DNA of 64,000 bases. Source: Gemmatimonadota bacterium. GTDB taxonomy: Bacteria; Gemmatimonadota; Gemmatimonadetes; Gemmatimonadales; GWC2-71-9. The translations under genes and the position numbers were made by a program. Shown one piece after another: positions 27,048 to 44,982 of the stretch. Positions within the stretch are counted from its first letter, which is position 1. Each line of letters starts with the position of its first letter. A model generated the notes under the pieces. The model saw only the letters and a list, made by a program, of their open reading frames with translations. It was not told where the DNA came from and ran no database searches. The DNA is taken from assembly GCA_025357945.1 (NCBI GenBank), contig JANYLJ010000046.1, forward strand, positions 1 through 64,000. The letters run 5' to 3'.

Positions 27048-27402
27048 GGCGGCGCCGGGGAGCGGTGGGCTGGTCGTCCAGGTGGCGGGCGTCCGTCGGT
27101 TCATCCCGGTCGCCTCGGTGCTGGAAGTGCTGCGGGAGGCCCGGATCATCCGGGTCCCCGGCGGGGTGCCGGCGGTGCGGGGGATGGTTAACCACCGCGG
27201 CCGGATCATCCCCGTGGCGGACGCGGTCCGCTCGCTTGGCCTGAGCGGCGAGTCGGGCACCGGGGGCGAAGTGGTCGTGGTGGAGTGGCAGCAACGGCGG
27301 TTCGGGGTGGCGGTTGATGCCGTTGTGGAGTTGAATAGCGAGGCGCGCACGGGCCTTGCAGAGATCGACTTGGCGCAGATCGCAGCCGCGATCTTCGCCT
27401 GA
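27040..27402 (+). CDS. cheW: CheW-like adaptor protein
   Basis: A 120-residue single CheW domain, short for the family (about 150). It begins SGGLVVQVAGVRRFIPVASV and has the SH3-like pattern RVPGGVPAVRGMVNHRGRIIPVADA, the typical interaction region with CheA. It ends without the usual C-terminal helix. ATG 27040 overlaps the rluD stop by 8 nt, so it is translationally coupled to a housekeeping gene. It heads the chemosensory run and is followed 20 nt later by cheY. Possible job: linking CheA to an unseen receptor. Confidence 0.88.
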   Translation: MPEAAPGSGGLVVQVAGVRRFIPVASVLEVLREARIIRVPGGVPAVRGMVNHRGRIIPVADAVRSLGLSGESGTGGEVVVVEWQQRRFGVAVDAVVELNSEARTGLAEIDLAQIAAAIFA

Positions 27403-27422: not shown

Positions 27423-27788
27423 GTGGCCCAACGGATCCTGATTTGTGACGACGCGATCTTCATGCGCACGATGATCGCGGATATTCTGAGCGGCGCCGGC
27501 TACGAAATCGCCGGTGAGGCCGCGAGTGGTCTCCAGGCGGTGGAGCGGTACAAGACGGTCAAGCCGGACCTGGTCACCATGGACATCGTGATGCCCGACA
27601 TGGGCGGCATTGACGCTGTCAAGGCGATTATTGCGCTGGATCCGAACGCGAAAATCCTGATGTGCAGCGCGATGGGCCAGCAGGCATTGGTGGTCGAGGC
27701 GATCCAGTCCGGCGCCAAGGACTTCGTCGTCAAGCCGTTTCAGCCGGCACGGGTTCTCGAAGCCGTGCAACGTGTCCTGGGTGGATGA
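27423..27788 (+). CDS. cheY: CheY-like response regulator
   Basis: A 121-residue single receiver domain. The acidic pair D9/D10, phospho-acceptor D54 (VTMDIVMPD), switch residue S81 (ILMCSAMGQQ) and conserved K103 (VVKPF) are all in place, and the last helix is normal. There is no output domain. The style (VTMDIVMPDMGGIDAVKAI) is that of CheY of the Bacillus/Thermotoga type, which often pairs with CheC. The start is GTG 27423 with ggagg upstream. It overlaps cheA (ATGA). Confidence 0.94.
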   Translation: MAQRILICDDAIFMRTMIADILSGAGYEIAGEAASGLQAVERYKTVKPDLVTMDIVMPDMGGIDAVKAIIALDPNAKILMCSAMGQQALVVEAIQSGAKDFVVKPFQPARVLEAVQRVLGG

Positions 27789-29293
27789 CGGACGCCCGGC
27801 GCGCGCGCTACGTCGCCCTCTTCGCCTCTGAAGCACGCCCGCTGCTGACGGGCGCCCGCCGCGCGCTGTCGCAGTGGCAGGACGATCCCACTCAGCCGGA
27901 CGGCGCGGAGGAAATCTTCCGGGCGCTCCACACCATCAAGGGGATGGCCGCCTCGCTTGAGTTCACGGCCGCGGCCGATCTCGCCCACGCGACGGAAACG
28001 ACGCTCAGCACGGTGCGCCGCGGCGATCAGGTGGCCACCGCCGCGTGGCTGCGCGCCTTCGAGGTCGCGCTGGACGACATCTCGGCGGCCTGCGAGCGGG
28101 CGATCGCCGATGCCGGTGGAGCACTCACCCCGGCGGACCAGCACGCGGTGCCACAGGGGCCGCGCATTGTGCGGGTCGACCTGGACCGGCTCGATGCGCT
28201 GCTGAGCGATCTCGGGTCGCTGATCACCGCCCGCCAGGAACTCGAGCGACGCGCAGCGGCCGACCGGTTCTCGCCCACGGCGCGCGCGGCGCTGCAGATG
28301 TCACATCGCCTCGACACGCTGCAGGACCGGATTCTTGACGTGCGCCTCGCGCCGTTGTCCGAGGTATTCGAGCGCATTCCACCGATGGTGCGCGACCTCG
28401 GCCGCGCCCTCGGCAAGGACGTCGCCGTCGACGTGACCGGCAACCCGCTCGAAGTCGATCGGGCCATCCTCGATCAGCTGGCGGAGCCATTGCTCCACCT
28501 GTTGCGGAACGCGGTGGACCACGGCATCGAATTCGCCGATGTCCGCCGCGCGGCTGGCAAGCGACCCGGCGGGCGCATTGCGGTCGCGGCGCGCCAGGAC
28601 GGCGAGGCCGTCATCATCGAAATCACCGATGACGGTCGCGGCATCGATCGCGACGTCGTGGCGCGACGCGCGCGCGAGATGGGGATCCTCGAAGACGACG
28701 CGACGCTCACCGACGACGGCCTGTTGGCGGTGCTCGAGCGGCCTGGCTTCAGCATGGCCGACACCGTGACGGACGTCTCGGGTCGCGGCGTCGGGCTGGA
28801 CGTGGTGGTCGCCCGGATGCGCGACATCGGCGCGTCGCTCTCGCTCACGACGGTACTCGGTCGGGGCACCGTGTTTTCCCTCAAGCTCCCGACGCGGCTC
28901 GGCATCGTGCGCGCGCTGGTGACGGGGATTGGGGACGAGCGCTACGTGATGCCGTTGACCCACGTGATCGAACTGGTCGCCTGGCAGCCCGATCTTGTCG
29001 GGCAGCAGGACGGCCGGGCGGTGCTCTTCGTGCGCGGTGAAGCGCTGCCAATCGTCGACCTCCGGCGGCTGCTTCTTTATCGCGGCGCCGAGCCGCCGGC
29101 GCGTCGCCCAGCGGTCGTCTTCGAAGCAAACGGGCAGCGGGTGGCGCTGCTGACTGACTCCGTGCACGGTCAGGTCGACGCGGTCATCCAGCCGATCGAG
29201 CGGCCGGCGGGTTTGGCCCGCTGGATCACTGGCGCGACCGTGCTGGACGATGGTCGACCAGCCTTGTTGATGGACCTGGCGAGTGTGGTGTGA
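27785..29293 (+). CDS. cheA: Chemotaxis-type histidine kinase CheA lacking a P2 domain
   Basis: A 502-residue hybrid-free CheA. The HPt domain carries H49 in RALHTIKGMAA, the P3 dimerisation helices span about 128-200, and the ATPase domain has N box LRNAVDHGIE (about 240-249), DDGRGID (282-288) and SGRGVGLDVV. A CheW-like P5 domain ends the protein. Between HPt (ends about 115) and P3 there are only about 15 residues, so the usual CheY-binding P2 domain is missing. It is encoded directly after cheY (ATGA) and should phosphorylate it. Start at ATG 27785 because upstream codons are a cheY shadow. Confidence 0.95.
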   Translation: MTDARRARYVALFASEARPLLTGARRALSQWQDDPTQPDGAEEIFRALHTIKGMAASLEFTAAADLAHATETTLSTVRRGDQVATAAWLRAFEVALDDISAACERAIADAGGALTPADQHAVPQGPRIVRVDLDRLDALLSDLGSLITARQELERRAAADRFSPTARAALQMSHRLDTLQDRILDVRLAPLSEVFERIPPMVRDLGRALGKDVAVDVTGNPLEVDRAILDQLAEPLLHLLRNAVDHGIEFADVRRAAGKRPGGRIAVAARQDGEAVIIEITDDGRGIDRDVVARRAREMGILEDDATLTDDGLLAVLERPGFSMADTVTDVSGRGVGLDVVVARMRDIGASLSLTTVLGRGTVFSLKLPTRLGIVRALVTGIGDERYVMPLTHVIELVAWQPDLVGQQDGRAVLFVRGEALPIVDLRRLLLYRGAEPPARRPAVVFEANGQRVALLTDSVHGQVDAVIQPIERPAGLARWITGATVLDDGRPALLMDLASVV

Positions 29294-29317: not shown

Positions 29318-29938
29318 ATGCGATCGACCACTGACCTCGATACCCTCCGGCGCGACGCTCTCGGCGAAGTCGCCACGATCGGTGCCGGGCACGCCGCGAC
29401 GGCCTTGTCGCAGCTCACCGATCGCCGGATCATGATTTCGGTGCCGCACGTGCGGCAGATGGCGTACGCCGAGGTGCCGGAGATGGTCGCGGTGTTCGGC
29501 GACCACATTGCCGTGGTCGCGATGCGCATGCTGGGCGACCTCACTGGGCGCGCGCTGCTCGCCTTTGGCGAAGTTGACGCCGGTCGTCTCTGTGACCTGA
29601 TCCTGCGGCGTCCGGCCGGCCCGCCGCGCATCCTCGGCGAACTCGAGCAGTCGGGGCTCAAGGAAGTCGGCAACATCGTCTGTTCGGCGTACCTGACGGC
29701 GCTGAGCAACTTCATGGGGATGATGCTGCTCCCCTCGGTGCCGTCGCTGACGATCGGCCCCACCGCACAGGCGATCACCGCGACGGTGGATCCCCGGGAG
29801 GCAGAGAGCGACCTGGTGTTCTGCGTCGATACGGCGTTCACCGCCGAAGGGACCGACGACCCGCTCACCGGTGCGTTCCTGCTGATGCCCGACAAGGCAT
29901 CGGTGCGCGCGATTCTCGAGGCGATGCGGCTCGACTGA
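29318..29938 (+). CDS. cheC: CheC-family CheY-P phosphatase
   Basis: A 206-residue CheC/CheX/FliY-family protein that dephosphorylates CheY-P. The family has two D/SxxxExxN sites. The second is intact: S112, E116, N119 in QSGLKEVGNIVCSAYL. The first keeps D13 and E17 but has T20 instead of N (DALGEVATIGAG). aaggag precedes ATG 29318 by 5-6 nt, one of the clearest ribosome sites in this run. In Bacillus CheC is activated with CheD, which is not present here. Confidence 0.9.
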   Translation: MRSTTDLDTLRRDALGEVATIGAGHAATALSQLTDRRIMISVPHVRQMAYAEVPEMVAVFGDHIAVVAMRMLGDLTGRALLAFGEVDAGRLCDLILRRPAGPPRILGELEQSGLKEVGNIVCSAYLTALSNFMGMMLLPSVPSLTIGPTAQAITATVDPREAESDLVFCVDTAFTAEGTDDPLTGAFLLMPDKASVRAILEAMRLD

Positions 29939-29939
29939 C

Positions 29940-31079
29940 ATGCCGGCCGCCCGCCTTCGCGACGCCCAGATCGTCGCTGCCCTCAGGCGCAGGCTCGGCC
30001 CGGCCGACCCAACCACGCTCAGCAACTTCGCCTGGTTCGCCGCCCGCCGCGGTGAGCAACCCGCGGCACTCGAGGCGGCCCGCGCGGCTGCCGCGATGCC
30101 GAACGCACCGCGCGCCGCGTGGCGCGCGCTCGAACGTCTCGCCGCCGGGCACAGCGACGGGATGCTGCTCGCCGATACCGGCCCCGAGAACCGGGAACCC
30201 TCCCCGGCGGGAAACCCGCTCGCGGCCGCGGTCGCGGCGCATCGCCAGCTGGAATTCGCCGTGGCCGAGGCGTGTTACCGCACGGCGCTGCAGCACCCGC
30301 CGCTGGCGAGCGCGGCCTGGAACGGGCTCGGCGTGCTCCACGAACAGCGCCGCGAGCGCGCGGCGGCGGACGCGGCCTGGCAACAGGCGGTCGCGGCCGG
30401 GAACGTGGCGGCGATGCACAACCAGGCGCTCGCCATGCTGCGCCGGGGCTTCGCGCATCGTGCCCGGGTGATGCTTGCGCCGGCTCTCGAACACGCCGAG
30501 GCGCCACTGTCACTCCGATTCCTGGGCGGGTACGCCGCGCTGAGCGACCAGGATCCCGCGGCGGCGATGCCGCTGATCACTGCCGTCCTTGCGGATGACC
30601 CGGAATCGGCGCGGGCGCACTTCACCCTCGGCCTGATCCATGAGCGACTGGGCCGCCACGCTGATGCGCTCGCCGCTATCCGTCGGGCGCTGCTGCTGTC
30701 GCCCTGGTACCTCCCGCAGGTCTGGCTGGTGGAACCGGCCGCCGACGCGCCGTCGATCGAACTTCCGGTCGACAACGGCGAGCCGGGTGCGGTGGCGCAC
30801 ACCGACGACGTGTTGCTCTCGCTGGGGCGTTCACTGTTGCAGACTGCGCATCTCGGCGAGGCCCTTGCCGTGTTCGATCAGGTGTTGGTGCATCAGCCGT
30901 CGCAAGCGGCCGCGTTGTTCCACCGCGGCGTCGTGCTCGCCAAGCTTCGGCGGTACGAGGAAGCGCTCGAGGACTGGGAAGTCGTCGGTCGCACCGACCC
31001 GGCCAGCGAACTCGCTGATGCCGGCCGTCGCCACGCGCGGTCGGCCCGCCAGCTCGCGTCGCTCTTCGCCGGACAGTAG
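29940..31079 (+). CDS. TPR-repeat protein
   Basis: A 379-residue soluble protein made almost only of TPR-like helical pairs, e.g. AAWNGLGVLHEQRRERAAADAAW, ARAHFTLGLIHERLGRHADA and AALFHRGVVLAKLRRYEEALEDW (residue blocks shortened). No signal peptide or catalytic motif. ATG 29940 starts 1 nt after the cheC stop. Such proteins act as scaffolds. In this operon it may bind CheC, the Roadblock proteins or the AAA+ protein. Confidence 0.82.
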   Translation: MPAARLRDAQIVAALRRRLGPADPTTLSNFAWFAARRGEQPAALEAARAAAAMPNAPRAAWRALERLAAGHSDGMLLADTGPENREPSPAGNPLAAAVAAHRQLEFAVAEACYRTALQHPPLASAAWNGLGVLHEQRRERAAADAAWQQAVAAGNVAAMHNQALAMLRRGFAHRARVMLAPALEHAEAPLSLRFLGGYAALSDQDPAAAMPLITAVLADDPESARAHFTLGLIHERLGRHADALAAIRRALLLSPWYLPQVWLVEPAADAPSIELPVDNGEPGAVAHTDDVLLSLGRSLLQTAHLGEALAVFDQVLVHQPSQAAALFHRGVVLAKLRRYEEALEDWEVVGRTDPASELADAGRRHARSARQLASLFAGQ

Positions 31080-32006
31080 ATGCACGGACCACTGAGTGAG
31101 ATCGGGTTGATCGAGGTGCTGCAACTGCTCGAGCGGGGCGGCCAGAGCGGCGTGCTGCGGATCACTGGCGTGAATCCGGCGGACGCGTGTCGGCTGCGCA
31201 TCACCGATGGCGAGATTGTTGCGCTGGAGCCGGCGGCCGACGACGCCGCGACGCGGCGGGCGCTGTTGACCCGCCACCTCGTCACCGACGCCGAGGCCGT
31301 TGACGACCCGGGTGTGCTGCGCCGGCCTCAGGCCCGGGAGGTGCGGGCGCAACTCGCCGCGCAGGCTCTCGCCGCGATGCTGCACTGGCGGCAGGGGCGC
31401 TTCGACTTTGAAACGACCGCGCCGGCACCGGGTCCGTTGTCACTCTCTCCCGACGCCCTGGTGTTCGACCTGGTCGCGTCGGAGACCCGCCGGGTGGATC
31501 TTGCACCGCTGATGGACGACTTCCACGCGGTTCCGGATTTTGCGGCGAACGACGTGCTCGCCGTTGGTGCGGTGCCGCTGCTGACGCCGCTCGACTGGCG
31601 GCTGCTGGACCAGGTGGACGGCGTCCGCGATGTCACGGCGCTCGCCGTCGCCATCGACGAGCCACTCGAGGAGGTCGCCGGGAGCATCCAGGCCCTGCAG
31701 GCTGCCCTTATACTTGGGCTCCGGCGACCGGTCGCCGACGCGAGCATGGTGGCGCACACGGCGATCGAGGCCGGGCGTTACGAAGAGGCGGCGACGCTGC
31801 TCCGCGCCCGGGTCGTCGACCATCCGGAAGACACCGAGGCCTGGCGATCCCTCGGCCTGGCCGAGGTCGGTGCCGGCCGTTTCGAGCGCGCCATCGACGC
31901 GTGGCAGAGTTGGCACGCCAATGATCCCGATCGCGCCGACGACGCCGTCGCGCTGATGCAGGCCGCTCGTACCATGGTGGAGGCTCTCCGCGACGCCCGT
32001 GACTGA
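31080..32006 (+). CDS. PATAN (DUF4388)-like N-domain plus TPR protein
   Basis: A 308-residue protein. The N-terminus HGPLSEIGLIEVLQLLERGG and the following SGVLRITG, LRITDGEIVALEP and HWRQGRFDFE give the PATAN/DUF4388 pattern, a domain found first in the cyanobacterial regulator PatA and common next to chemosensory and MglA-type genes. Residues about 160-215 look like a winged-helix repeat (LLDQVDGVRDVTALAVAI). The last 90 residues are TPR pairs. The start follows directly on the previous stop (tagATG). It overlaps the next gene by 8 nt. Confidence 0.78.
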   Translation: MHGPLSEIGLIEVLQLLERGGQSGVLRITGVNPADACRLRITDGEIVALEPAADDAATRRALLTRHLVTDAEAVDDPGVLRRPQAREVRAQLAAQALAAMLHWRQGRFDFETTAPAPGPLSLSPDALVFDLVASETRRVDLAPLMDDFHAVPDFAANDVLAVGAVPLLTPLDWRLLDQVDGVRDVTALAVAIDEPLEEVAGSIQALQAALILGLRRPVADASMVAHTAIEAGRYEEAATLLRARVVDHPEDTEAWRSLGLAEVGAGRFERAIDAWQSWHANDPDRADDAVALMQAARTMVEALRDARD

Positions 32007-32757
32007 CGTTCCCTTCGCTGGCGCATCGGCGGCTCCGCTCCAGGGCATGGCCTTCCTCGAACTTGGCGAGCGGTTGCGGCAGCGCGGCCAACTCGCCGCC
32101 GCAGCGACCGTGGCACTCGCCGGCCTCGGCCACTATCCGGCGGTCGCGGACGCGCACGACCTGCTCGCCCGCATTCGCGCCGACCAGGGCAACGATGCCG
32201 GGGCGATCGCGGCGTGGCACGCGACGCTCGAATGCGATACCGGTCACCTCGGCGCCCGCAAGGGGCTTGCGTTCATCGCCTTCCGGTCGGGTGAGTTTGC
32301 GCTGGCCGAGCGCTACCTCGAGGCGGCAGCCATGGGGGCGCCCCACGATGCCACCATCCTCGCGGCGCTTGACCGGGTCCGGTCGCTGCCGCGCGGGTCG
32401 ACCGAGGACGCCGTGCGCCTCGCGGATCCCGCGAGCGGCGTGTTGCTGTTCGACATGCAGGGGATGCGGCTCGCCGGCACCGTGGCTGATTCAGGCGATG
32501 TGTCGGTGGCCGATGCCGTGTCGGCCGACGCCGCCGGCCTGGCGCGCGAAGCGACGCGCGCCGCGCGACTGCTCGGTCTTGGCGCGGTGCGGCACATCGT
32601 GCTCGAAACCGCCGATGCGCGGATCGCGGTGATCCCGGTGCGCCATGACGCCGCGCTCCTGTTGCACCGCAGCGCCAGCACGCCACTCGGCCGGCTGCTG
32701 GCGCTGGGCGGGCGCGCCGCGCACGCCGCGCGCGAGTGGCTGGAGCGGATGCAATGA
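31999..32757 (+). CDS. TPR protein with a C-terminal Roadblock/LC7 domain
   Basis: A 252-residue protein. Residues 15-130 are TPR pairs (ELGERLRQRGQLAAAATVAL, EFALAERYLEAAAM). The C-terminal about 115 residues look like a Roadblock/LC7 domain of the MglB type: GVLLFDMQGMRLAGTV, helix with ALAREATRAARLLGLG-like pattern, strand HIVLETADARIAVIPV and a final helix. Roadblock domains dimerise and act on small GTPases. The GTG 31999 start overlaps the preceding gene. Confidence 0.72.
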   Translation: MTDVPFAGASAAPLQGMAFLELGERLRQRGQLAAAATVALAGLGHYPAVADAHDLLARIRADQGNDAGAIAAWHATLECDTGHLGARKGLAFIAFRSGEFALAERYLEAAAMGAPHDATILAALDRVRSLPRGSTEDAVRLADPASGVLLFDMQGMRLAGTVADSGDVSVADAVSADAAGLAREATRAARLLGLGAVRHIVLETADARIAVIPVRHDAALLLHRSASTPLGRLLALGGRAAHAAREWLERMQ

Positions 32758-33107
32758 GCATCGCCGGGTGGCAGGACGCGCTGCGCGAAGTAACCGGTGT
32801 CGCCGGCGTTCGTGGCGCGCTGATCATCTCCGCCGAGGACGGACTCGTCATCGCCGAGACCGCCATGGACGACCTGGCGACGGCCGACGTGGCCGCGCTC
32901 TCGGCCGCGTTGGTGTCGCGCGCCCGGCGTTGTACCGCCGCGTTGCATGCGACCCCACCGGAGAGTGTCCACCTCGTGGGCGAACGCGGGGCGGTGCTGG
33001 CCGTTGCCGGCCCCGCGCCGCTCTGGCTGGTGGCCGTCGCGCGCGACGACGCCGAACTCGGGCGGTTGCGGCTCGTTCTGCGTGACGCTGCCGGTGCGTT
33101 GCACTGA
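32754..33107 (+). CDS. Roadblock/LC7 (MglB-like) protein
   Basis: A 117-residue single Roadblock domain: helix WQDALREVTGVAGVRGALII, strand SAEDGLVIAET, helix TADVAALSAALVSRARR, strand ESVHLVGERGAVLAVAG and ending LRLVLRDAAGALH. It fits MglB-type GTPase activating or regulating proteins. ATG 32754 overlaps the preceding gene (ATGA) and its stop overlaps the next (TGATG). Confidence 0.78.
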   Translation: MSIAGWQDALREVTGVAGVRGALIISAEDGLVIAETAMDDLATADVAALSAALVSRARRCTAALHATPPESVHLVGERGAVLAVAGPAPLWLVAVARDDAELGRLRLVLRDAAGALH

Positions 33108-33574
33108 TGCGCGTCCTCGAGCCGTGGGTTGCTGACCCACTCACGGAGTTTCTTCGCGAATCCGGCGCGCGGCTCGCCCTGGTGATGACCAGTTCGGGGC
33201 AGGTGATCGCGCAGGACGGGTTCACGCGGTCACTGGACGTGATGTCCGCGGCCGCGCTCGGCGCCGGCATCCTGGCGACCACACAGGAATTGGCCACGAT
33301 CCTCGATGCGCCGCGCGGCTTTGGCGCGATCGTGCACCAGGGCGAGCGGCAGGGGGTCTGGCTGGCCGGCTTCGATACGCCGCGTGGCCGATGGATTGGC
33401 CTCGTCGTGTTCGGCCATGAGTCATCCGTCGGATTGGTCCGCTTGTTCTTCGCCCGATTTGCGCAGCAGGTCGCCGCGGCAGCACCGGTCGTGACGCCGG
33501 TGCGCGAGGTCCTGGCCGAGGGCTTCGAGCGCGAGCTCGACGATTCCCTGCGTGCCCTGTTCGGGACCCGGTAG
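33107..33574 (+). CDS. Roadblock/LC7 (MglB-like) protein
   Basis: A 155-residue Roadblock-like protein: RLALVMTSSGQVIAQDGF, the helix SAAALGAGILATTQELATI, strands FGAIVHQGERQGVWLAGF and WIGLVVFGHES, then the last helix VGLVRLFFARFAQQVAAAA and a tail GFERELDDSLRALFG. This is the clearest MglB look-alike of the three. It ends 2 nt before the GTPase gene, the position expected of the cognate GAP. Confidence 0.8.
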   Translation: MRVLEPWVADPLTEFLRESGARLALVMTSSGQVIAQDGFTRSLDVMSAAALGAGILATTQELATILDAPRGFGAIVHQGERQGVWLAGFDTPRGRWIGLVVFGHESSVGLVRLFFARFAQQVAAAAPVVTPVREVLAEGFERELDDSLRALFGTR

Positions 33575-33576
33575 CG

Positions 33577-34182
33577 ATGCCGCACATCGACGCCGAGCGA
33601 CGCGAACTGATGCTGACCCTGGCGGTGTATGGTGCGCCGAAGGTCGGCAAGACCACGATTCTCCATTGCATCCAGGATCGCGTCACGCCCGAACGGCGCG
33701 GCAATATCAACCCGTTTGGCACCGATGCCGGCGTGGCGCGGTTGCTTGACTGGTTGCCGCTCGAACTCGGCAGGATCAGCGGGTGGCAGACGCGCGTGCA
33801 CCTGTACGCCATCCCCGATCAGCGGCATGCCGACGCCACGCGGCGGGTGATCCTCGGCGACGCCGACGGCATCCTGTTCGCGGCCGACGCGCAAGCGGGG
33901 CGGCTCGCGGACAATCTCACCGCGCTGCGAAGCCTGCGGGACAATCTGGATGATCGTGATGGCCATGCCCGCGACGTCCCGATGGTGCTGCTCTACACCA
34001 AGCACGACCTCCCGGCGGAGCTGCTGCTCACGCGCAGCGCGCTGAATCAGGAACTCAATGCGCGGGCCGCCCCGGACTTTGTCTGCAGCGCGCTGCGTGG
34101 TGAAGGGGTGCTCGAAGCGTTGCATAGTGTCATCGCGATCGTGATGCGGCAGTTCGCCCCAACCCGCCGGAACGGCGCGTGA
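33577..34182 (+). CDS. MglA-like small GTPase
   Basis: A 201-residue Ras-like GTPase of the MglA family. P-loop GAPKVGKTT (19-27), the MglA signature LDWLPLELGRISGW (57-70), strand VHLYAIPDQ (74-82) and TKHD (141-144) for guanine recognition. In MglA the region corresponding to AIPDQ is TVPGQ, so the catalytic glutamine (Q82) is kept but the preceding glycine is D81. MglA sets cell polarity for gliding and type IV pili with MglB as GAP; here three Roadblock genes precede it. ATG 33577 lies 2 nt after the previous stop. Confidence 0.88.
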   Translation: MPHIDAERRELMLTLAVYGAPKVGKTTILHCIQDRVTPERRGNINPFGTDAGVARLLDWLPLELGRISGWQTRVHLYAIPDQRHADATRRVILGDADGILFAADAQAGRLADNLTALRSLRDNLDDRDGHARDVPMVLLYTKHDLPAELLLTRSALNQELNARAAPDFVCSALRGEGVLEALHSVIAIVMRQFAPTRRNGA

Positions 34183-34189
34183 GTCGGCG

Positions 34190-36193
34190 ATGTTGAACCC
34201 GCACGCCCGATTCGCGTCGTTCGTCGTCGGTTCGTCGAACCGCCTCGCGGCCACGGCGGCCAAGGCGGTGGCCGAAGCCCCCGGCGCGGCGTACAACCCG
34301 CTCTTCTTCTATGCCCGCCCCGGTCTGGGCAAGACCCATCTCCTCACGGCGATTGGCCACGAAGCCCTCGTGATCGACCCGTCGCGCGTCGTGGAGTATG
34401 TCACCGCCGACGATTTTGTCGAGGCCTACCACACCGCGCTCGCCGCTGGTCAGGCCGACGCGTACCGGCGCCGGTTCACCGAAGCCCACCTGGTGCTGGT
34501 CGATGACGCGCAGTTGCTCGCCGATCAGCGCGAATTGCAGTCGGAATTGCTGCGATTGATCGACGTATTGATGGCTGCCGATCGACAGATCGTGCTCGCC
34601 GGTGATCGCCCGCCGGAAGAGATCCAGTCGCTGGACGAGCGATTGATCCGGCGGTTCGCGGGTGGCCTGGTCATCGACATCGGCGCGCCCGACTACGAGA
34701 CGCGCCTGGCGATCCTGTCACGCCGCGTCGTCGAGCGGCAGGTCGCCTTCGGGCCCGACGTGCTGGCCGCCGTGGCGGAGTTGCCGATCGGCACGGTACG
34801 CGAGCTGCTCGGCGCGCTCAACCGCTTGATCGCGCAACAGGCGGTGGCGGTCGGGCCGGTGAGCGTGGACGAGGCGCGCAAGGTGTTGGCGACGCTCGGG
34901 CATGCCAGGGCGGCTGGGCGCTCGGGGCGCGGGGCTGATGGTAGCGGCGCAACCATCGGCGTGGTCAGCCAGAGCTCCACTCCCATCGCATCAGCCCCCA
35001 GCTCCGCGTCCCCAGCTGGTCTGGACGAGTTCTCTACTTTTCTCGCCGATGTGTCAACGGCGGTATCGCAGCAGGTGGATCGCTGGCGTCAGCGGGTCAC
35101 GGAAGCCGCACTTCGCTATAGCGGCGAAGGCTTTCACACGACCCGGCTGGACTCCCTGCTGGCGCAGGAGATCGCGGTCGACCCCGCCGCAGCGCTGGCA
35201 ACATTCGAGGCCGACATCGACGTGCTGCGTCGACTGCAGCGTGAACTGAGCGACATCGCACCATCGCTCCTGGTCGACACGGCGCTGCATGATCCCGATC
35301 GCGTGGCGGAGGCGGAGGTGCTCGTCACCGACGCCCGCGAGGCGGGCGCGCCACTGCCCGGACCGTCGCCGCGGTACACGCTCGCGCACTTCGCCGAGGG
35401 CACCTCGACGCGCCCCGTCGTGGCAGCGATTCGCGTCGTCGCCGCGGCGCCAGGGCAGCGCTACAATCCGCTGGTCATCGTTGGCAAGGCGGGCCTGGGG
35501 AAAACTCATCTGCTGCATGCGCTCGGACATCTGCTCAAGAGCAGCGGCGTGGCTCGCGTGGTGGTGTTCGACGGCAAGGAGTTTGTGGACGGCCTCGTGG
35601 CGGCCCTCGGCGACGGGACAATTACGCGCTGGCGGCAACAACTCCGTCGAGCGGATGCGTTCCTCCTTGACGACGTCGGCGCACTCGCGGGCAAGGAGCG
35701 GAGCCAGGAAGAGTTGTACCTGCTCTACAACCTGCTGCTCGAATCGGGGCGCCAGATGGCGTTCACGGCGACGGCCGCGCCGACGCAGCTCGATGGCTTC
35801 GAACCGCGTCTGGCGACGCGCCTGGCTGGCGGCCTGGTGCTCGAACTCGGGCCCCCCGATCGCGAGGCAAGAACGCGCGAGGTGGAGCGCCTGCTCGGAC
35901 CCGGGCCCGCCGATCCGGAGCTGGTGGAGTATCTCGCTGCCCGTCCGGCTGCTTCGCTCCGTGAGGTGCAGCAGCTGGTGCCGCGGCTGTTGAGCGCGGC
36001 GGAAGGGCGTGACACGGCGCTGTCGGTAGACGTCGCACGGGTGATACTTGAAGGGACGATCGCGCCAGTGGTGCGGCCGCCCCGTCGCGGCAGCGGCCTG
36101 CTGGCACCGGGGGCCGGCGCGATTCGCTCGCGCGAGAAGATGATCGAGACCTGGCCCGACATCGCCGAGCGCCTGCTCGAGGACTGGAACTGA
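34190..36193 (+). CDS. Tandem DnaA-like AAA+ ATPase without DNA-binding domain
   Basis: A 667-residue protein of two AAA+ modules of the DnaA/Hda class. Module 1 (about 5-235) begins FVVGSSNRLAATAAKAVAEA and has NPLFFYARPGLGKTHLL (Walker A 45-50), Walker B LVLVDDAQLL (D105, D106) and an RLIRRFAGGLVIDI box like DnaA's Arg-finger region. Module 2 (about 395-640) repeats it: YNPLVIVGKAGLGKTHLLHA (Walker A 435-440), FLLDDVGALAGK (D494, D495), and RLATRLAGGLVLELG. Residues about 240-280 are a low-complexity linker and 285-385 are helical. The last part ends without the DnaA domain IV DNA-binding helix-turn-helix, so it does not look like an initiator. ATG 34190 is 7 nt after the GTPase stop. Confidence 0.86.
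   Translation: MLNPHARFASFVVGSSNRLAATAAKAVAEAPGAAYNPLFFYARPGLGKTHLLTAIGHEALVIDPSRVVEYVTADDFVEAYHTALAAGQADAYRRRFTEAHLVLVDDAQLLADQRELQSELLRLIDVLMAADRQIVLAGDRPPEEIQSLDERLIRRFAGGLVIDIGAPDYETRLAILSRRVVERQVAFGPDVLAAVAELPIGTVRELLGALNRLIAQQAVAVGPVSVDEARKVLATLGHARAAGRSGRGADGSGATIGVVSQSSTPIASAPSSASPAGLDEFSTFLADVSTAVSQQVDRWRQRVTEAALRYSGEGFHTTRLDSLLAQEIAVDPAAALATFEADIDVLRRLQRELSDIAPSLLVDTALHDPDRVAEAEVLVTDAREAGAPLPGPSPRYTLAHFAEGTSTRPVVAAIRVVAAAPGQRYNPLVIVGKAGLGKTHLLHALGHLLKSSGVARVVVFDGKEFVDGLVAALGDGTITRWRQQLRRADAFLLDDVGALAGKERSQEELYLLYNLLLESGRQMAFTATAAPTQLDGFEPRLATRLAGGLVLELGPPDREARTREVERLLGPGPADPELVEYLAARPAASLREVQQLVPRLLSAAEGRDTALSVDVARVILEGTIAPVVRPPRRGSGLLAPGAGAIRSREKMIETWPDIAERLLEDWN
34913..35016. repeat. 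Inverted pair of 7-nt-period repeats in the AAA+ linker
   Basis: Plus strand: gctgggc, gctcggg, gcgcggg, gctgatg (34913-34940). After 48 nt the complement: catcagc, ccccagc, tccgcgt, ccccagc (34989-35016), i.e. gctgggg, acgcgga, gctgggg, gctgatg on the minus strand. Both arms end inward in gctgatg. It lies wholly in the codons for the linker between the two DnaA-like modules. Compare 21174-21267. Confidence 0.65.
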
Positions 36194-37815
36194 TGGCGAT
36201 CAAGGGGTCACTCAAGGAAGCATCGCTGGCCGACGTGGTACAGCTGTTGTTCCTGGGACGCCGAACGGGCTGCCTGTCGGTCGCCAGTGATCGCAACTTC
36301 GGTTCGATCTGGTTCGACGAAGGGTGGATCACGTTCGCCGGCATGGTGTCCCGTACCGATCGACTCGGTGAGCGGCTGGTGGCGGCAGGGAAGATCTCGG
36401 TCGAACAGCTCGAGGAAGCGATCGCGTCGCAGGTGGCGATGCCGGGCCGCCGCATCGGCGAGATCCTGGTCCACCTCGGACTGATCACGGCTGGCGAGCT
36501 GGCCGACGAGCTGCGTCGCCAGGTCGAAGAGACGGTGTACACGCTGTTCGCCTGGACGAGCGGCACGTTCTCCTTCGAGGTTGCGTCGCCGACCGACGCA
36601 CCAGACGCGAACCTGCGCCTGAATCCGGAGGGGCTGCTGCTGGAGGGCGCGCGGCGGGTCGACGAGTGGAGCGTGATCGCCAAGAAGATTACGACGGTCG
36701 ATGCGGTCTACGCCTTCGAAGGGGAGCCACGAAGCGCCGCCGACAACAATGCGCATCTCGTCGAGTCCGAACGCCGGGTGCTGCCACTGATCAACGGACT
36801 TAACACCGTCCGCGAGATCGTGGACGGCACTGGACTGAGCGAGTTCGAGGTGTGCCGCGTGCTCTACGGCCTGCTCTCTGCCGGTCGGCTCCGCCGTGTT
36901 GCGACCGCGCCGCCGCCCGCGCCGCGCGAGGATGCTTCGCGCGTCGACGAGCATCGCAATCTCGGCGTCGCCTTTTACCGCACGGGCATGCTGGCTGAGG
37001 CGGAACGCGAGTTTCGTCGCGTCGGGGAGCTGCGGCCCATGGACGGTGTCGCCCCGTTTCATCTCGGCCTGATCGCGTTGCGCCAGGCGCGCTGGAGCGA
37101 CGCGGTCGAGCACTTCGAGCGCGCCGTCGAGCGGGATGGCGCGCGCGTGGCGGTGTTGCACAACCTCGCGCTCGCGCTCGAGGCGGCCGGCCGCCTCGAC
37201 GACGCCGACGCAGCACTGACCAACGCGGTGCAGGCGAACAACCACGACGCCAGGCTGTGGACGGCGTGGGGACTGCTCGCGTTGCGACGCAACGAATCGG
37301 CGCTGGCGCTCGAGCGCTTTGCGCGGGCCCGCGACCTGCTCGGGACCACCACGCCGCCGGCGCGCTGGTTCTGGGGCTGCGGCTGGGCCCAGGGATTGTC
37401 CGAAGCCTGGCCGGATGCGCTGGGCACCGTGCGGGAAGGGGTGGCCGCGTTCCCGGATCACCCCGTCCTGCGGACGACGCTCGGCGTGTTGCTCGAAGGG
37501 ACTGGCGAAGTCGGCGAGGCCGAGGCGCACCTGCGCCACGCCCTCGGCGAAGACCCCACCATTCCACAGATCTCGAAGAACCTCGGCGACCTGCTCTATC
37601 GTGCCGGCCGCTGGGATGAAGCCGAAGAGTCGTACGAACGGGCGGCCAAGATCGCACCAGCTCTCGGTGACGACATCTACTTCAAGCTTGGCAACCTGGC
37701 CTGCCGGCGTGGCGACCTTGCCGCTGCCCGGCAGCGCTGGGAACAGGCCATTCGCCTCAACCCCGAACATGCGCTGGCGCGCGCCAACCTCGCCGGATCG
37801 GGCGTGGCCGCGTGA
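36193..37815 (+). CDS. PATAN (DUF4388) domain and TPR protein
   Basis: A 540-residue protein. The first about 135 residues are a textbook DUF4388/PATAN domain: GSLKEASLADVVQLLFLG, TGCLSV, IWFDEGWITFAG, a helical insertion LGERLVAAGKISVEQLEEAI typical of MshEN-like elements, and LFAWTSGTFSFEV. Residues about 190-240 look like a winged-helix segment (LINGLNTVREIVDGTGLSE). From about 250 to 535 there are eight or so TPR pairs. No transmembrane segment. It overlaps the AAA+ stop by TGATG. Confidence 0.87.
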   Translation: MAIKGSLKEASLADVVQLLFLGRRTGCLSVASDRNFGSIWFDEGWITFAGMVSRTDRLGERLVAAGKISVEQLEEAIASQVAMPGRRIGEILVHLGLITAGELADELRRQVEETVYTLFAWTSGTFSFEVASPTDAPDANLRLNPEGLLLEGARRVDEWSVIAKKITTVDAVYAFEGEPRSAADNNAHLVESERRVLPLINGLNTVREIVDGTGLSEFEVCRVLYGLLSAGRLRRVATAPPPAPREDASRVDEHRNLGVAFYRTGMLAEAEREFRRVGELRPMDGVAPFHLGLIALRQARWSDAVEHFERAVERDGARVAVLHNLALALEAAGRLDDADAALTNAVQANNHDARLWTAWGLLALRRNESALALERFARARDLLGTTTPPARWFWGCGWAQGLSEAWPDALGTVREGVAAFPDHPVLRTTLGVLLEGTGEVGEAEAHLRHALGEDPTIPQISKNLGDLLYRAGRWDEAEESYERAAKIAPALGDDIYFKLGNLACRRGDLAAARQRWEQAIRLNPEHALARANLAGSGVAA

Positions 37816-38648
37816 GCGACGACAGCGTGGCGTCGCTCCGCGCGGAGTTCGAGCGGCTCGAGACGGCACTCCAGGGCCAGGTTGCGGCGGGTGAGCGTAC
37901 CGCGCTCAAGTCGGCGATCGTGGCACTCTTTAAACGGACCGAGACGCGCATCGCGGAAATGACCGCGTTCAAGGAGCGGATCCGCGACCTCGTGGAGGGC
38001 TTCAAGGCATTGCCACAGGCCGCCGCCGTTTCGACCCGCCACGATCATCTCGGCGCGTCGACCCATATCGAGCGCGGGTGGAGCGCCCTCGCGGCGGGCG
38101 ATTGGGCCGTCGCCGAGGCGCAATTGCGCCAGGCGGTGTCGCTCGATGCCACCAGCACGACGGCGCCGGCGCTGCTCAGCTGGGCGCTGATGTACCAAAA
38201 CCGGAACGACGAGGCGCTCCAGCTTTGCCTCCAGGTGCTCCTCGGCGAGCCGGAAAATGGGTTGGCCCGGGTGGCCATCGGGGCGATCTGTCTCCGCAAG
38301 GGTATCGTGGGTGAGGCGATCGAACATCTGTCTCGGGCTGCCGCACGTACGGCAGATGGGCGCGCCGCACTCTACGCAAATTTCTGGCTCGGCGTCGCCT
38401 ACCTGGAGCGCGACATGCAAAGCGACGCGGTGGAGTTCCTGCGACGCGCCGTGACGCAGGGCCCCAATCTCGCCGAAGGGTGGGCGGAACTCGGCCGCGC
38501 ACTCTGGCTGCGCGGGCAGCATGTCGAAGCGCGCGAGGCATGGACGCTCGGGGCGGGGATCCGGCATTCGCCGCACGCCGGACGCTGCCGCGCGTTGCTC
38601 GACACGGTTGCCGGGGGAGGAGTACCGCCACGTTCGCCGTTCGCCTGA
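37812..38648 (+). CDS. Coiled-coil and TPR protein
   Basis: A 278-residue protein. The N-terminal 70 residues form a probable coiled coil (LRAEFERLETALQGQVAAG, ETRIAEMTAFKERIRDLVE), the rest is TPR pairs such as HIERGWSALAAGDWAVAEAQ and LYANFWLGVAYLERDMQSDA. GTG 37812 overlaps the previous stop (GTGA). No export signal. Function unknown; position suggests a scaffold partner of the PATAN-TPR and AAA+ proteins. Confidence 0.78.
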   Translation: MSDDSVASLRAEFERLETALQGQVAAGERTALKSAIVALFKRTETRIAEMTAFKERIRDLVEGFKALPQAAAVSTRHDHLGASTHIERGWSALAAGDWAVAEAQLRQAVSLDATSTTAPALLSWALMYQNRNDEALQLCLQVLLGEPENGLARVAIGAICLRKGIVGEAIEHLSRAAARTADGRAALYANFWLGVAYLERDMQSDAVEFLRRAVTQGPNLAEGWAELGRALWLRGQHVEAREAWTLGAGIRHSPHAGRCRALLDTVAGGGVPPRSPFA

Positions 38649-39559
38649 TCGCGTTGCTGGTGCAGATCGGGAACACTCCGGTGCCGGAGCGACGGATCGA
38701 CGTCGGCGATATCACGGTCTACGCCGATCCGGCGCACGCGGCGTTGGCGACAGGGCTCGCCGAGGCGGCGTCGGTGCCGCATGACTGGCTGGGACTCGGA
38801 CGACTCGATCCCGGGCGGTTGCTGCTGATCGTGGCGAACGACCGCGCCGACTTTGCCCGCTGGTCGCGGGGCCGGCTGCCGAGTTGGGGGGCCGGGGCGG
38901 CGTTTCCTGGCAGTCGGGTAGTGATTATCCGGCTCGATGCCGGGGACCCCTACCAGACGCTGCGACACGAACTGGCGCACGTCGCGTTGCACCGGAAGGT
39001 GCCAGGACGCGTGCCGCTCTGGTTCGACGAAGGTTACGCCGTGCTGGCGGCCGCGGAGTACGGTCGCTTCGCTGCGCTACGACTCAACCTCGCCGTGGCG
39101 ACCGGAACGATCCCGGAACTCCGGGCGCTGGATGGCGCGTTAAGGGGGAGTGACGGTGACGCGGAAACGGCATATGCGCTCGCGGGATCGGCGGTTGCGG
39201 AGTTGGCCCGTCGGAGTCGCAACGGCGACCTGGGCGAGTTGCTGCGACCGCTGGAAGCAGGGGTTCCCTTCGACGCTGCCGTAGCCTCAGCCACCGGGTT
39301 CACGATCGATCGGTTCGAGGAGGTCTGGACCCGATCGGTCCGGCAGCACTACAACTGGCTGGTCTGGTTGGCCACGGGGGGTATGTGGCTGATCGTGACG
39401 ATGGCACTGATGTGGGCGGCGGCGTCCCGGAAGCGTCGCGAGGCGCCGCGTCGAGCGGCCCTCGACGTGGGTTGGCCGCAACCGCCGGAAGATGACGGAA
39501 CGATTACGATTCAAGAAGTTGAGCCACATCAACTTGACCCGTTGGACCCAAGGAGCTAG
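38630..39559 (+). CDS. MA-type metallopeptidase with C-terminal membrane anchor; start uncertain
   Basis: A zinc metallopeptidase-like protein of about 300 residues. The active site is HELAHVAL (H codon at 38966) with the downstream glutamate in WFDEGYAVLAA, the pattern of the peptidase MA family. A transmembrane helix WLVWLATGGMWLIVTMALM lies near the C-terminus, followed by a basic then acidic cytosolic tail. The start is unclear: gggggaggag (38613-38622) is a perfect Shine-Dalgarno, but the codon at proper spacing is ACG 38630, which would give FAVRLIALLVQIGNTP, a signal-peptide-like start. Standard alternatives are CTG 38645, TTG 38654 or GTG 38660. It overlaps the preceding gene and ends the chemosensory run. 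Confidence 0.75.
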   Translation, partial: TFAVRLIALLVQIGNTPVPERRIDVGDITVYADPAHAALATGLAEAASVPHDWLGLGRLDPGRLLLIVANDRADFARWSRGRLPSWGAGAAFPGSRVVIIRLDAGDPYQTLRHELAHVALHRKVPGRVPLWFDEGYAVLAAAEYGRFAALRLNLAVATGTIPELRALDGALRGSDGDAETAYALAGSAVAELARRSRNGDLGELLRPLEAGVPFDAAVASATGFTIDRFEEVWTRSVRQHYNWLVWLATGGMWLIVTMALMWAAASRKRREAPRRAALDVGWPQPPEDDGTITIQEVEPHQLDPLDPRS

Positions 39560-41846: not shown

Positions 41847-42761
41847 ATGACCAACGCCGTCCTGCACCAGCCCGTTCTCCTGGCGCCGATCGTCGAGCGG
41901 GCGCTGGGCGCCACGCGGGTGGTGGACGCCACCTTGGGAGATGGCGGCCACGCGGCGGGATTCCTGGCCCAGGGCGCGACGGTGCTCGGGATCGACCGCG
42001 ATCCTGATGCGATCGCCACCGCCCGGGCAAGGCTTGGCGAGGTCGGCGTCCGCTATCTCCAATCGGCGTACGCCGCCGACGCGGCGGTTACCGCGATCGT
42101 CAACTTCCGCCCCGAGTTCATCCTGCTCGACCTCGGTGTGTCGTCACGTCAACTCGACCAGGCCGACCGCGGGTTCACCTTCCGGCCCGGCGCGCCGCTC
42201 GACATGCGCATGGGCCCCGACGCCCCGACGGCGGCGGAGTGGTTGGCGAGCGTGGACGAAGAGGAGCTGACCGACGTGCTGCGCCACTACGCCGACGAGC
42301 CGCGAGCGGTGCGAATGGCGCGCGAATTCCTTCGGCGTCGCGAGAACGCACCATTTATCATGAGCGACGACGTGGTCAACGCCGTCCGGGCGGTACTCGG
42401 TCCGCGCAGCGGTCCGGGCGACTTCGCGCGAATCTTCCAGGCGCTCCGCATCGCGGTGAACGACGAACTGGGTGGCCTCGAACGGGCACTCCCGCTCTTC
42501 CGCACGGCGCTGGGCGATCGCGGAACCCTGGCGGTGATCAGTTATCATTCGGGCGAGGATCGACTGGTGAAAGGCGCGTTCCGTGCCTGGGCGCACGGGT
42601 GCATCTGCCCGCCGGGTTTGCCGCAGTGTATCTGCGGCAAGGAACCGCTCGGAACGGCCGAACCTCGCCGGGCGATCATCCCGCTCGCGGCGGAGATTGC
42701 CGGCAATCCGCGCGCACGCAGTGCCAAGCTCCGCTTCTTCCGAGTCCACCATGCGGGTTAG
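41847..42761 (+). CDS. rsmH: 16S rRNA m4C1402 methyltransferase RsmH (MraW)
   Basis: A 304-residue SAM-dependent methyltransferase, first gene of this division and cell wall cluster. Family blocks: LHQPVLLAPIVERAL, VVDATLGDGGHAAGFL (SAM), FILLDLGVSSRQLDQADRGF, DMRMG, IFQALRIAVNDELGGLERAL and ISYHSGEDRLVKGAF. It ends with CICPPGLPQCICG. The usual mraZ gene is missing upstream. ATG 41847; it overlaps ftsL by 11 nt. Confidence 0.96.
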   Translation: MTNAVLHQPVLLAPIVERALGATRVVDATLGDGGHAAGFLAQGATVLGIDRDPDAIATARARLGEVGVRYLQSAYAADAAVTAIVNFRPEFILLDLGVSSRQLDQADRGFTFRPGAPLDMRMGPDAPTAAEWLASVDEEELTDVLRHYADEPRAVRMAREFLRRRENAPFIMSDDVVNAVRAVLGPRSGPGDFARIFQALRIAVNDELGGLERALPLFRTALGDRGTLAVISYHSGEDRLVKGAFRAWAHGCICPPGLPQCICGKEPLGTAEPRRAIIPLAAEIAGNPRARSAKLRFFRVHHAG

Positions 42762-43032
42762 GGGTCGCTACCTCGTGATTGCCTGGACGGCAGTGTTCCT
42801 CGCTGCCGTCGGCGCAATCGTGTTCCGCACCCGGGCTGGTTTCCGGATGCAGGAGCGCGTCACCGCGCTCAACGACAGTATTCAGGCGGTCGCGGGAATC
42901 CGCGGCGACGTGGAAGCGAAGGTCGCCGCGCTGAAGAGCCTGCCGGTGCTGGCGCCCAAGGCGGCGGCGCTCGGATTGCGCTTCGCCTCCGATACCGAGT
43001 TCCACCTGCTCGCCGTTCCCGTCGCGCACTGA
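42751..43032 (+). CDS. ftsL: FtsL-like cell division protein
   Basis: A 93-residue protein: short basic N-terminus (MRVRGRYLV), one transmembrane helix (about 8-25), then a helix FRMQERVTALNDSIQAVAG that could form the FtsL/B coiled coil. Identity rests on size, layout and position between rsmH and ftsI; FtsL sequence is poorly conserved. ATG 42751 overlaps rsmH. Its stop directly abuts the ftsI start. Confidence 0.78.
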   Translation: MRVRGRYLVIAWTAVFLAAVGAIVFRTRAGFRMQERVTALNDSIQAVAGIRGDVEAKVAALKSLPVLAPKAAALGLRFASDTEFHLLAVPVAH

Positions 43033-44982
43033 ATGGCCAAACCCGCCGCACGCATCGTCTTCCTTGAGGCCGTGCTGCTCGTCGCGGCGGCGGCGGTGCT
43101 CGCGCGCAGCTTCTGGCTGCAGGTCGTGCATCACCAGGTCTGGGTTGCCAAGGCGGCGAACCGGCGTGAGCGCGACAGCGAACTCCCCGCTCGCCGCGGC
43201 CGGATCTATGATCGGAACGGCCAGCCGCTGGCGGTGAGCCAGGGGCAGTACCGCGTCAAGGTGTCGCTCAACCAGGTCAAGGACACGGCCGCGTTGCGGG
43301 CGCGGCTGGTCGCACTCCTCGGCGTACCAAAGCCGAAGGTCGCCGAGCAGTTCCGCGGCGACTACCCCTATTTCCACGGGCCGTTCGGCGCGGAACAGGT
43401 GGCGACGCTGCGAGGTCTCCACGGCGTCCATCTCGAGGTGCTCTTCAACCGCGAGTACCCGATGCAGTCGCTCGCCGATCGGATCCTCGGCCGCCTCAAT
43501 CAGCAAGGGGATTCCGGGATCGAAGGGATGGAGAAGGCGCTCGACACGCTGCTGCAGGGGCAGCCGGGCCGGCGGCACTATCTCGTCGACGCCAAGGGCA
43601 GGCGCCTCCCGGCACCGGGACCACCGCTGACGGAGCCCGTGGCGGGGCAGGACGTAAAACTCACCCTCGATAACAACTTGCAGGGAATCGCCGAGGCGGC
43701 GCTTCGGCACGGTATCGAGACCAACCATGCCCTCGGTGGCGACATCGTGATCCTCGACGTGCATAGCGGCGAACTGCTCGCGGTCGCGTCGTGGCGCCCG
43801 GACGGGTCCACCCACGCGATGGTGACGACCTCGTCGGCGATCGTCGAGCCGAACGAGCCCGGATCCACGTCCAAGTTATTCACGGTCGCCGCCCTGCTCC
43901 GCAGTGGCGCCGACACGACGCCCGTGAGCGGTGAGGGCGGCCGGTGGATGATGACGGTCGGTCGCGGCGCACCGCGCAAGATCGAGGATGTCCACCCGCT
44001 GCACGGCATGGTCACGGTCGGCGAAACGGTGAAGTATTCGAGCAACATCGCGATCTCGAAATTTTCGCTGAACCTGTCGCCTGAGCAGCAGTACGAGACG
44101 ATTCGCGACTTCGGCTTTGGTACCGCACCGGGTCTCGGTTTTCCCGGCGAGGCACCGGGGAAGTTGCGCCGCCCCGCGTTATGGGAAAATCGCCTCCTGT
44201 CGCAGCCGTCGCTCGGTCAGGGTTACGAGTGGGAAGCAAGCGCGGTGCAGCTCGCCGTTGGCTACGCGGCGATCGCCAACAATGGCGTGCTGATGGCGCC
44301 CACGTTGCTGCGGGAAGTGCGTAACGAACACGGTGTCGTGACGTGGCAACACCACCCGGACACTGTGCGCCGTGCGGTGCCGGACTCGATCGCGAAACAC
44401 CTGTTCGAGTATCTCCGGATGACCGAAGGCGACGGCGGCACCGGTTCCAAGGCGCAGCTCGATCGCTTTCCGGTGCCCGGCAAGACTGGCACGGCGAAGG
44501 TCACGACGGGCGGGTATCGCGCCTCGTACGTCGGGATCTTCCCGGCAGACAACCCGCAAGCGGTGGTGTACGTCATGATCGACCGTCCGCACAACGGCAA
44601 GATCTATGGCGGCGACGTGGCAGCGCCGATCGTGAGGCAGGTGCTGCAACAGGCGCTCCTTGCGCCCACGAGTCCCCTCGATCGGCGATGGCTCATGGAG
44701 GCGGTACCGGCGGTGCCAGCTGCCGCGCCAGCCGGGGCGCCGGTGCTGGCGGCCGTCAAGCGGGTCGCCTTTCCGGTGATACGGTCGACGAAAACGTTCG
44801 CGCCGGTGGCGGTTCCGGTGGTCGCTGGCCAGATGGTTCGGGAAGCCGTGGTGGCGTTGCAGCGGGCGGGATTCCAGGTTCGCCTGGTGGGGCACGCGCG
44901 CGTGCGCAGCACCGCACCGTCTGCCGGCGACTCCCTCTCGCACGGCGCCGTCGTCACGATCTACGCGGACTCGATGCCATGA
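43033..44982 (+). CDS. ftsI: Division transpeptidase FtsI (PBP3) with C-terminal PASTA domain
   Basis: A 649-residue class B penicillin-binding protein that crosslinks septal peptidoglycan. An N-terminal membrane helix (about 8-27) is followed by a PBP dimerisation domain. The catalytic triad motifs are STSK (S278-K281), SSN (336-338) and KTGT (484-487). A PASTA-like domain ends it (VPVVAGQMVREAVVALQRAG, about 595-645). PASTA-bearing FtsI/SpoVD is more usual in Gram-positive bacteria. ATG is right after the ftsL stop and the gene overlaps murE. Confidence 0.95.
   Translation: MAKPAARIVFLEAVLLVAAAAVLARSFWLQVVHHQVWVAKAANRRERDSELPARRGRIYDRNGQPLAVSQGQYRVKVSLNQVKDTAALRARLVALLGVPKPKVAEQFRGDYPYFHGPFGAEQVATLRGLHGVHLEVLFNREYPMQSLADRILGRLNQQGDSGIEGMEKALDTLLQGQPGRRHYLVDAKGRRLPAPGPPLTEPVAGQDVKLTLDNNLQGIAEAALRHGIETNHALGGDIVILDVHSGELLAVASWRPDGSTHAMVTTSSAIVEPNEPGSTSKLFTVAALLRSGADTTPVSGEGGRWMMTVGRGAPRKIEDVHPLHGMVTVGETVKYSSNIAISKFSLNLSPEQQYETIRDFGFGTAPGLGFPGEAPGKLRRPALWENRLLSQPSLGQGYEWEASAVQLAVGYAAIANNGVLMAPTLLREVRNEHGVVTWQHHPDTVRRAVPDSIAKHLFEYLRMTEGDGGTGSKAQLDRFPVPGKTGTAKVTTGGYRASYVGIFPADNPQAVVYVMIDRPHNGKIYGGDVAAPIVRQVLQQALLAPTSPLDRRWLMEAVPAVPAAAPAGAPVLAAVKRVAFPVIRSTKTFAPVAVPVVAGQMVREAVVALQRAGFQVRLVGHARVRSTAPSAGDSLSHGAVVTIYADSMP

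Follow-up and report, generated by a model that had tools for sequence, protein, structure and literature searches.

AAA+ proteins of the DnaA clade are, to our knowledge, known from DNA replication and the control of this process. In the ATP state DnaA assembles head to tail on origins, and its domain III, represented by the structures 8bv3 and 8btg (B. subtilis) and 2hcb and 3r8f (A. aeolicus), has an AAA+ fold with Walker A and B motifs, a sensor 1 Asp, a box VII arginine finger and a sensor 2 Arg. These elements are also present in a protein encoded in the window examined here (the whole stretch of 64,000 nucleotides from a Gemmatimonadota genome), with the sensor 1 Asp found in its first module (D1). 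Unlike DnaA, this protein carries two modules per chain without domains I and IV, has the D1 residues assigned to ssDNA contact replaced, falls in clades apart from the Gemmatimonadota DnaA and is encoded in a motility-signalling operon. Hda/HdaA is likewise a DnaA-type AAA+ protein without domain IV and its profile is matched by the second module (D2), but the tandem protein has two modules, no clamp-binding motif and no replication context. The Myxococcus MglA/MglB module with SgmX, FrzS, SopA, RomR/RomX and Frz has in common with this locus an MglA GTPase, Roadblock, Che and TPR proteins, whereas no DnaA-type AAA+ adaptor was found described for it in the papers searched. The presence of MglA in Gemmatimonadetes was reported by Wuichet and Sogaard-Andersen (PMC4316618). 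No description of the tandem protein was found in the open-access papers searched, where searches for tandem DnaA, AAA+ proteins with MglA and DnaA lacking domain IV returned nothing relevant.

The gene encoding the tandem protein (34190-36193, forward strand; supported by the ORF, profile matches and a structural model) is uninterrupted from the ATG at 34190 to the TGA ending at 36193 and encodes 667 residues, which match the Pfam profile Bac_DnaA twice (total E 1.8e-87, far past the cut-off). D1, a domain III-type module, spans residues 1-236 (34190-34897), with Walker A GLGKTH at residues 45-50 (34322-34339) and Walker B DD at 105-106 (34502-34507); D2 spans residues 393-622 (35366-36055), with GLGKTH at 435-440 and DD at 494-495. 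The two full Walker A/B sets proposed in the sequence-only reading were thus borne out. The linker and helical region that it placed between the modules is indeed helical, but was refined to a disordered, fast-evolving spacer (residues 237-277, 34898-35020; pLDDT mostly below 50, mean pairwise identity 0.15) followed by a conserved middle domain predicted to fold (residues 278-386, 35021-35347), which occurs once per genome. This domain gave no significant Pfam or PDB match and no second protein carrying it was found in the genome. It includes helix motif 1 (beginning DEFSTFLADVSTAV, residues 279-303, 35024-35098; consensus EFxxFLxD), which persists where all AAA+ domains are lost. The same reading was right that the C-terminus lacks a DNA-binding domain, and missed a conserved tail, RSREKMIETWPDIAERLLEDWN (residues 646-667, 36125-36190; consensus WPD..R.(I/L)EE).

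In PDB sequence searches the best relative of D1 was domain III of B. subtilis DnaA (E 4.8e-49), and D2 weakly matched Hda and helicase loaders. An AlphaFold2 model built on an alignment of 43 homologues reached a mean pLDDT of 87.6, with most of D1 and D2 above 90 and low confidence at residues 240-278 and 627-647; the pTM of 0.49 makes the placement of the domains relative to each other unreliable. Foldseek superposed D1 on B. subtilis DnaA 8bv3 with a TM of 0.94 and 40% identity to domain III.

The search with Bac_DnaA_C, the profile of domain IV, detected no hidden copy of this domain in the tandem protein. Domain I (N-terminal, binding DnaB and other partners) is also absent, the protein starting at the first residue of domain III. 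The genome of the window has exactly one Bac_DnaA_C match, in a normal DnaA of 463 residues on another contig, and among 21 related genomes surveyed the 20 with a match have one copy each. A third DnaA-like match in the genome was set aside as IstB of IS21, named from its sequence and a neighboring transposase-like ORF. In a tree of 151 domains (quick search, SH-aLRT support), D2 (96), the Gemmatimonadota DnaA (100) and D1 together with single-domain forms (100) each formed one clade; the tree separates these clades but does not fix their order. This separation indicates that D1 and D2 have long travelled together and are no recent copies of DnaA, and a recent duplication of the host DnaA was ruled out on this basis.

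The tandem gene lies in a run of genes on the forward strand, from cheW (27040) to a peptidase gene (39559), in which adjacent genes with clearly placed starts are spaced by -22 to +24 bases. Upstream are genes encoding a CheW-like protein (27040-27402), a CheY-like response regulator (27423-27788), a CheA-like kinase (27785-29293, its start set by the ATGA overlap with cheY), a CheC-like phosphatase (29318-29938), a TPR protein (29940-31079), a DUF4388 and TPR protein (31080-32006), a TPR and Roadblock protein (31999-32757), two Roadblock/LC7 proteins (32736-33107 and 33107-33574, the latter, Robl2, matching MglB) and an MglA-family GTPase (33577-34182; E 2.2e-32 against MglA). Downstream follow a DUF4388 protein with TPRs (36193-37815), whose start overlaps the stop of the tandem gene, a TPR protein (37812-38648) and a peptidase MA-like protein of uncertain start (38480-39559). 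Family names come from Pfam/NCBIfam profile matches, except that of cheA, which was named by reading the sequence; the large overlaps listed for cheA and the peptidase gene are an artefact of mechanical ORF starts. The arrangement is kept in loci of many genera and families, and the DUF4388-TPR gene stands directly 3' of the tandem gene in nearly every locus in which the downstream side is present. An MshE-type c-di-GMP motif scored above the cut-off in the DUF4388-TPR protein (36193-37815), suggesting a second-messenger input. About 2 kb downstream of the operon is a division/wall cluster (rsmH, ftsI and murE, named from sequence; 41847-46427), which also follows the operon in several related loci.

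That the tandem gene lies next to a GTPase gene holds in so far as an MglA-family gene adjoins it, though the description needs care since the switch motifs of this GTPase are degenerate in the genus of the window: IPDQ replaces TVPGQ and DRTLFFDF is lost, while most other loci keep both. In this genus the operon GTPase may, judging from these motifs, be a pseudo-GTPase. The genome encodes a second, canonical MglB-MglA pair (locus L141, G000:C73:33038-33496), flanked by ORFs reading as recR and pgsA, as well as T2SSE-family ATPases including the PilT family and, elsewhere, two chemoreceptor-type genes.

Based on a protein search judged from match counts, the tandem protein occurs in about 176 of 298 sampled Gemmatimonadota genomes, and the helical domain alone as query also recovered 176 genomes, partly different ones and nearly all with a single copy. 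The remaining 122 are an upper bound on absence, as they include a locus whose contig ends inside the gene (L154) and a D1-only form (L152). Full-length homologues are found in many families of the phylum; restriction to Gemmatimonadota is provisional since other phyla were covered by one pattern scan only. The tandem protein is ancient and single-copy. With counts compiled by hand from protein and GTPase searches and uncorrected for shared ancestry, an MglA-family GTPase was present in 176/176 genomes with the tandem protein and in 56 of the 122 scored without it, being absent in 66. Within the order, an operon-type GTPase was scored by a strong E-value or a second match, and its presence tracked that of the tandem protein (127/7/14/24, p about 1e-13). 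The tandem gene accompanies genes for an MglA-family GTPase and Roadblock proteins, in the operon or by co-occurrence, as would be expected of a component of an MglA/Roadblock polarity system. PilT-family matches were found in all genomes with the tandem protein; this co-occurrence was discarded as support, true yet uninformative, because almost every genome of the phylum has PilT.

The residues of the ATP site were surveyed in 59 D1 and 59 D2 sequences, using E. coli DnaA numbering and 44 aligned DnaA sequences. D1 keeps Walker A Lys178 (58/59), Walker B Asp235-Asp236 (59/59), sensor 1 Asp269 (58/59), the arginine finger Arg285 (57/59) and sensor 2 Arg334 (59/59), and in the window protein every ATP motif of D1 is intact. 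D2 retains Walker A in 54/59, the second Asp of Walker B in 50/59, Arg285 in 56/59 and Arg334 in 45 of the 47 sequences with letters at that position; sensor 1 Asp269 is kept in only 20/59 and is missing in the window protein, where the other ATP motifs are present. The dN/dS values were 0.05-0.10 for D1, 0.13-0.19 for D2, 0.11-0.17 for the middle domain and 0.08-0.29 for the tail, the last from 22 codons only. By this measure D1, D2 and the middle domain are under purifying selection, and the values of about 0.05-0.19 over D1 and D2, together with homologues in many families, indicate that the architecture is no chance product.

A series of architectures was found in the same gene slot, i.e. 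between the GTPase gene and the DUF4388-TPR gene. The commonest is AAA-helical-AAA-tail. Loci L103-L105 have an AAA-helical-tail form without D2, as does L101 with a divergent D1; a single AAA+ module plus the helical domain, with no match to the tail pattern, was found in L106 and L152; and L100 has the helical domain and tail without AAA+. In nine genomes (genera g31 and g44) the slot is occupied by a microprotein of about 60-75 residues consisting of EFxxF(L/M)x(D/E) and a WP......(I)EE-type tail separated by a short spacer. In four loci of family f5 (L094-L097) no Walker A was matched in D2. The gene there is placed after rluD; the DUF4388-TPR gene follows it where the sequence extends (the contig of L097 ends), and the GTPase is not in the stretch but elsewhere in the genome. 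A six-frame scan found no further gene of the sampled loci that ends in the tail pattern. In one further locus (L160, G084:C278) the GTPase gene is directly followed by the peptidase gene, both the adaptor and the DUF4388-TPR gene being absent. Since motif 1 and the tail survive the loss of AAA+, what stays constant is this pair of motifs and not the ATPase modules. As g31 and g44 are nested in a family in which the remaining genera carry the tandem form, the microprotein more likely arose by loss than by gain, although this is not proven. The loss of AAA+ in some lineages further implies that ATP-driven assembly is not essential to the basic function.

It is well supported that the tandem protein belongs to a non-replicative signalling system. 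We infer, at roughly even confidence, that within this system it is a non-replicative adaptor of the MglA/Roadblock/chemosensory module with ATP-dependent assembly, most likely controlling polar type IV pilus activity. In this role it would connect the chemosensory and GTPase module with type IV pilus effectors of the DUF4388-TPR kind. Motif 1 and the tail would serve as docking elements for neighbor-encoded partners, the likeliest being the DUF4388-TPR protein directly downstream and the MglA-family GTPase. D1 and D2 would bind ATP, and in this state copies might join head to tail via arginine fingers and sensor 2 arginines, gathering many docking motifs at one site until hydrolysis frees them. 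DUF4388 presumably corresponds to PATAN, and the DUF4388-TPR gene is the most constant neighbor of the motif 1/tail gene. In Synechocystis, PATAN domains bind PilB (PMC10519157), and in Myxococcus the TPR protein SgmX, important for polar PilB, binds MglA-GTP (PMC7519303). A more specific and more tentative version is that of a polarity adaptor in which the DnaA-type modules form an optional cassette around two docking motifs, giving DnaA-like, ATP-dependent assemblies that would gather an MglA-family GTPase and its pilus effectors where it is present, and basic bridging by the microprotein where it is absent; this would be a new class of polarity adaptor. The suggestion that the DnaA fold was re-used for remodelling or signalling instead of replication was supported for signalling, given the lack of domain IV, the separate DnaA, the operon, the co-occurrence and the loss of ssDNA residues in D1. 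The remodelling part found no such support: several lineages keep the helix motif and tail although their AAA+ domains have degenerated or disappeared, which points to an adaptor with optional ATPases and not to an obligate remodeller.

An unlikely alternative is an Hda-like role in which the arginine fingers of the AAA+ modules trigger hydrolysis of DnaA-bound ATP, coupling replication to polarity or motility. The matches of D2 to Hda and DnaA profiles and the retention of arginine fingers in both modules are consistent with it, but no Q[LM]x[LM][FLM] clamp motif was found anywhere in the tandem protein, the operon concerns motility signalling and not replication, and the gene slot is kept although its AAA+ domains can vanish; moreover, 122 of the 298 genomes were scored without the tandem protein, although control of DnaA is needed in every one of them.

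Similarly improbable is a double-ring remodelling ATPase that, in the manner of p97/NSF, would dismantle GTPase/Roadblock or pilus-motor complexes. Tandem AAA+ modules with an intact D1 would suit such an enzyme, and p97/Rix7 ranked after DnaA in the Foldseek search. However, these matches reached a TM of only about 0.3 with an rmsd above 12 A, in a model of unsure domain arrangement, and a p97-like overall fold was rejected on these values. The two modules belong to the DnaA type, whose members are known to assemble in helices and not in unfoldase hexamers. In addition, sensor 1 is commonly lost from D2, and several lineages have lost D2 or both domains altogether.

The adaptor reading was also weighed against a DNA-tethered polarity or nucleoid factor, in which D2 would bind ssDNA via retained residues of the DnaA H/B motifs; this is very unlikely. 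We take positions 211 and 245 of DnaA to contact ssDNA. D2 keeps I/V211 in 55/59, K243 in 45/59 and R245 in 56/59, whereas D1 has His in place of Val/Ile211 in 45/59 and the opposite charge at Arg245, with Glu in 56/59, a residue not listed there among the 44 aligned DnaA sequences. The putative ssDNA-binding residues are, as far as the alignment tells, lost in D1 and retained in D2. Domain IV is absent, the net charge of the protein is negative and several lineages lack D2, all of which argue against tethering. An additional initiator of replication, serving the chromosome or an element, is strongly disfavoured and barely conceivable: the tandem protein scores above the cut-off of the DnaA equivalog model TIGR00362 (NCBIfam), but only because its two domains sum, it has neither domain I nor domain IV, a normal DnaA is encoded elsewhere and the operon is one of signalling.

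Given its TIGR00362 score, automatic annotation may label the tandem protein DnaA. In the architecture series, which runs from 667 residues down to about 60-75 in the microprotein, the docking part is set apart from the ATPase part, making each role directly testable. A protein widespread in one phylum, with two DnaA-type modules and encoded among Ras-like GTPase and chemosensory genes, would demonstrate recruitment of this fold to cell signalling.
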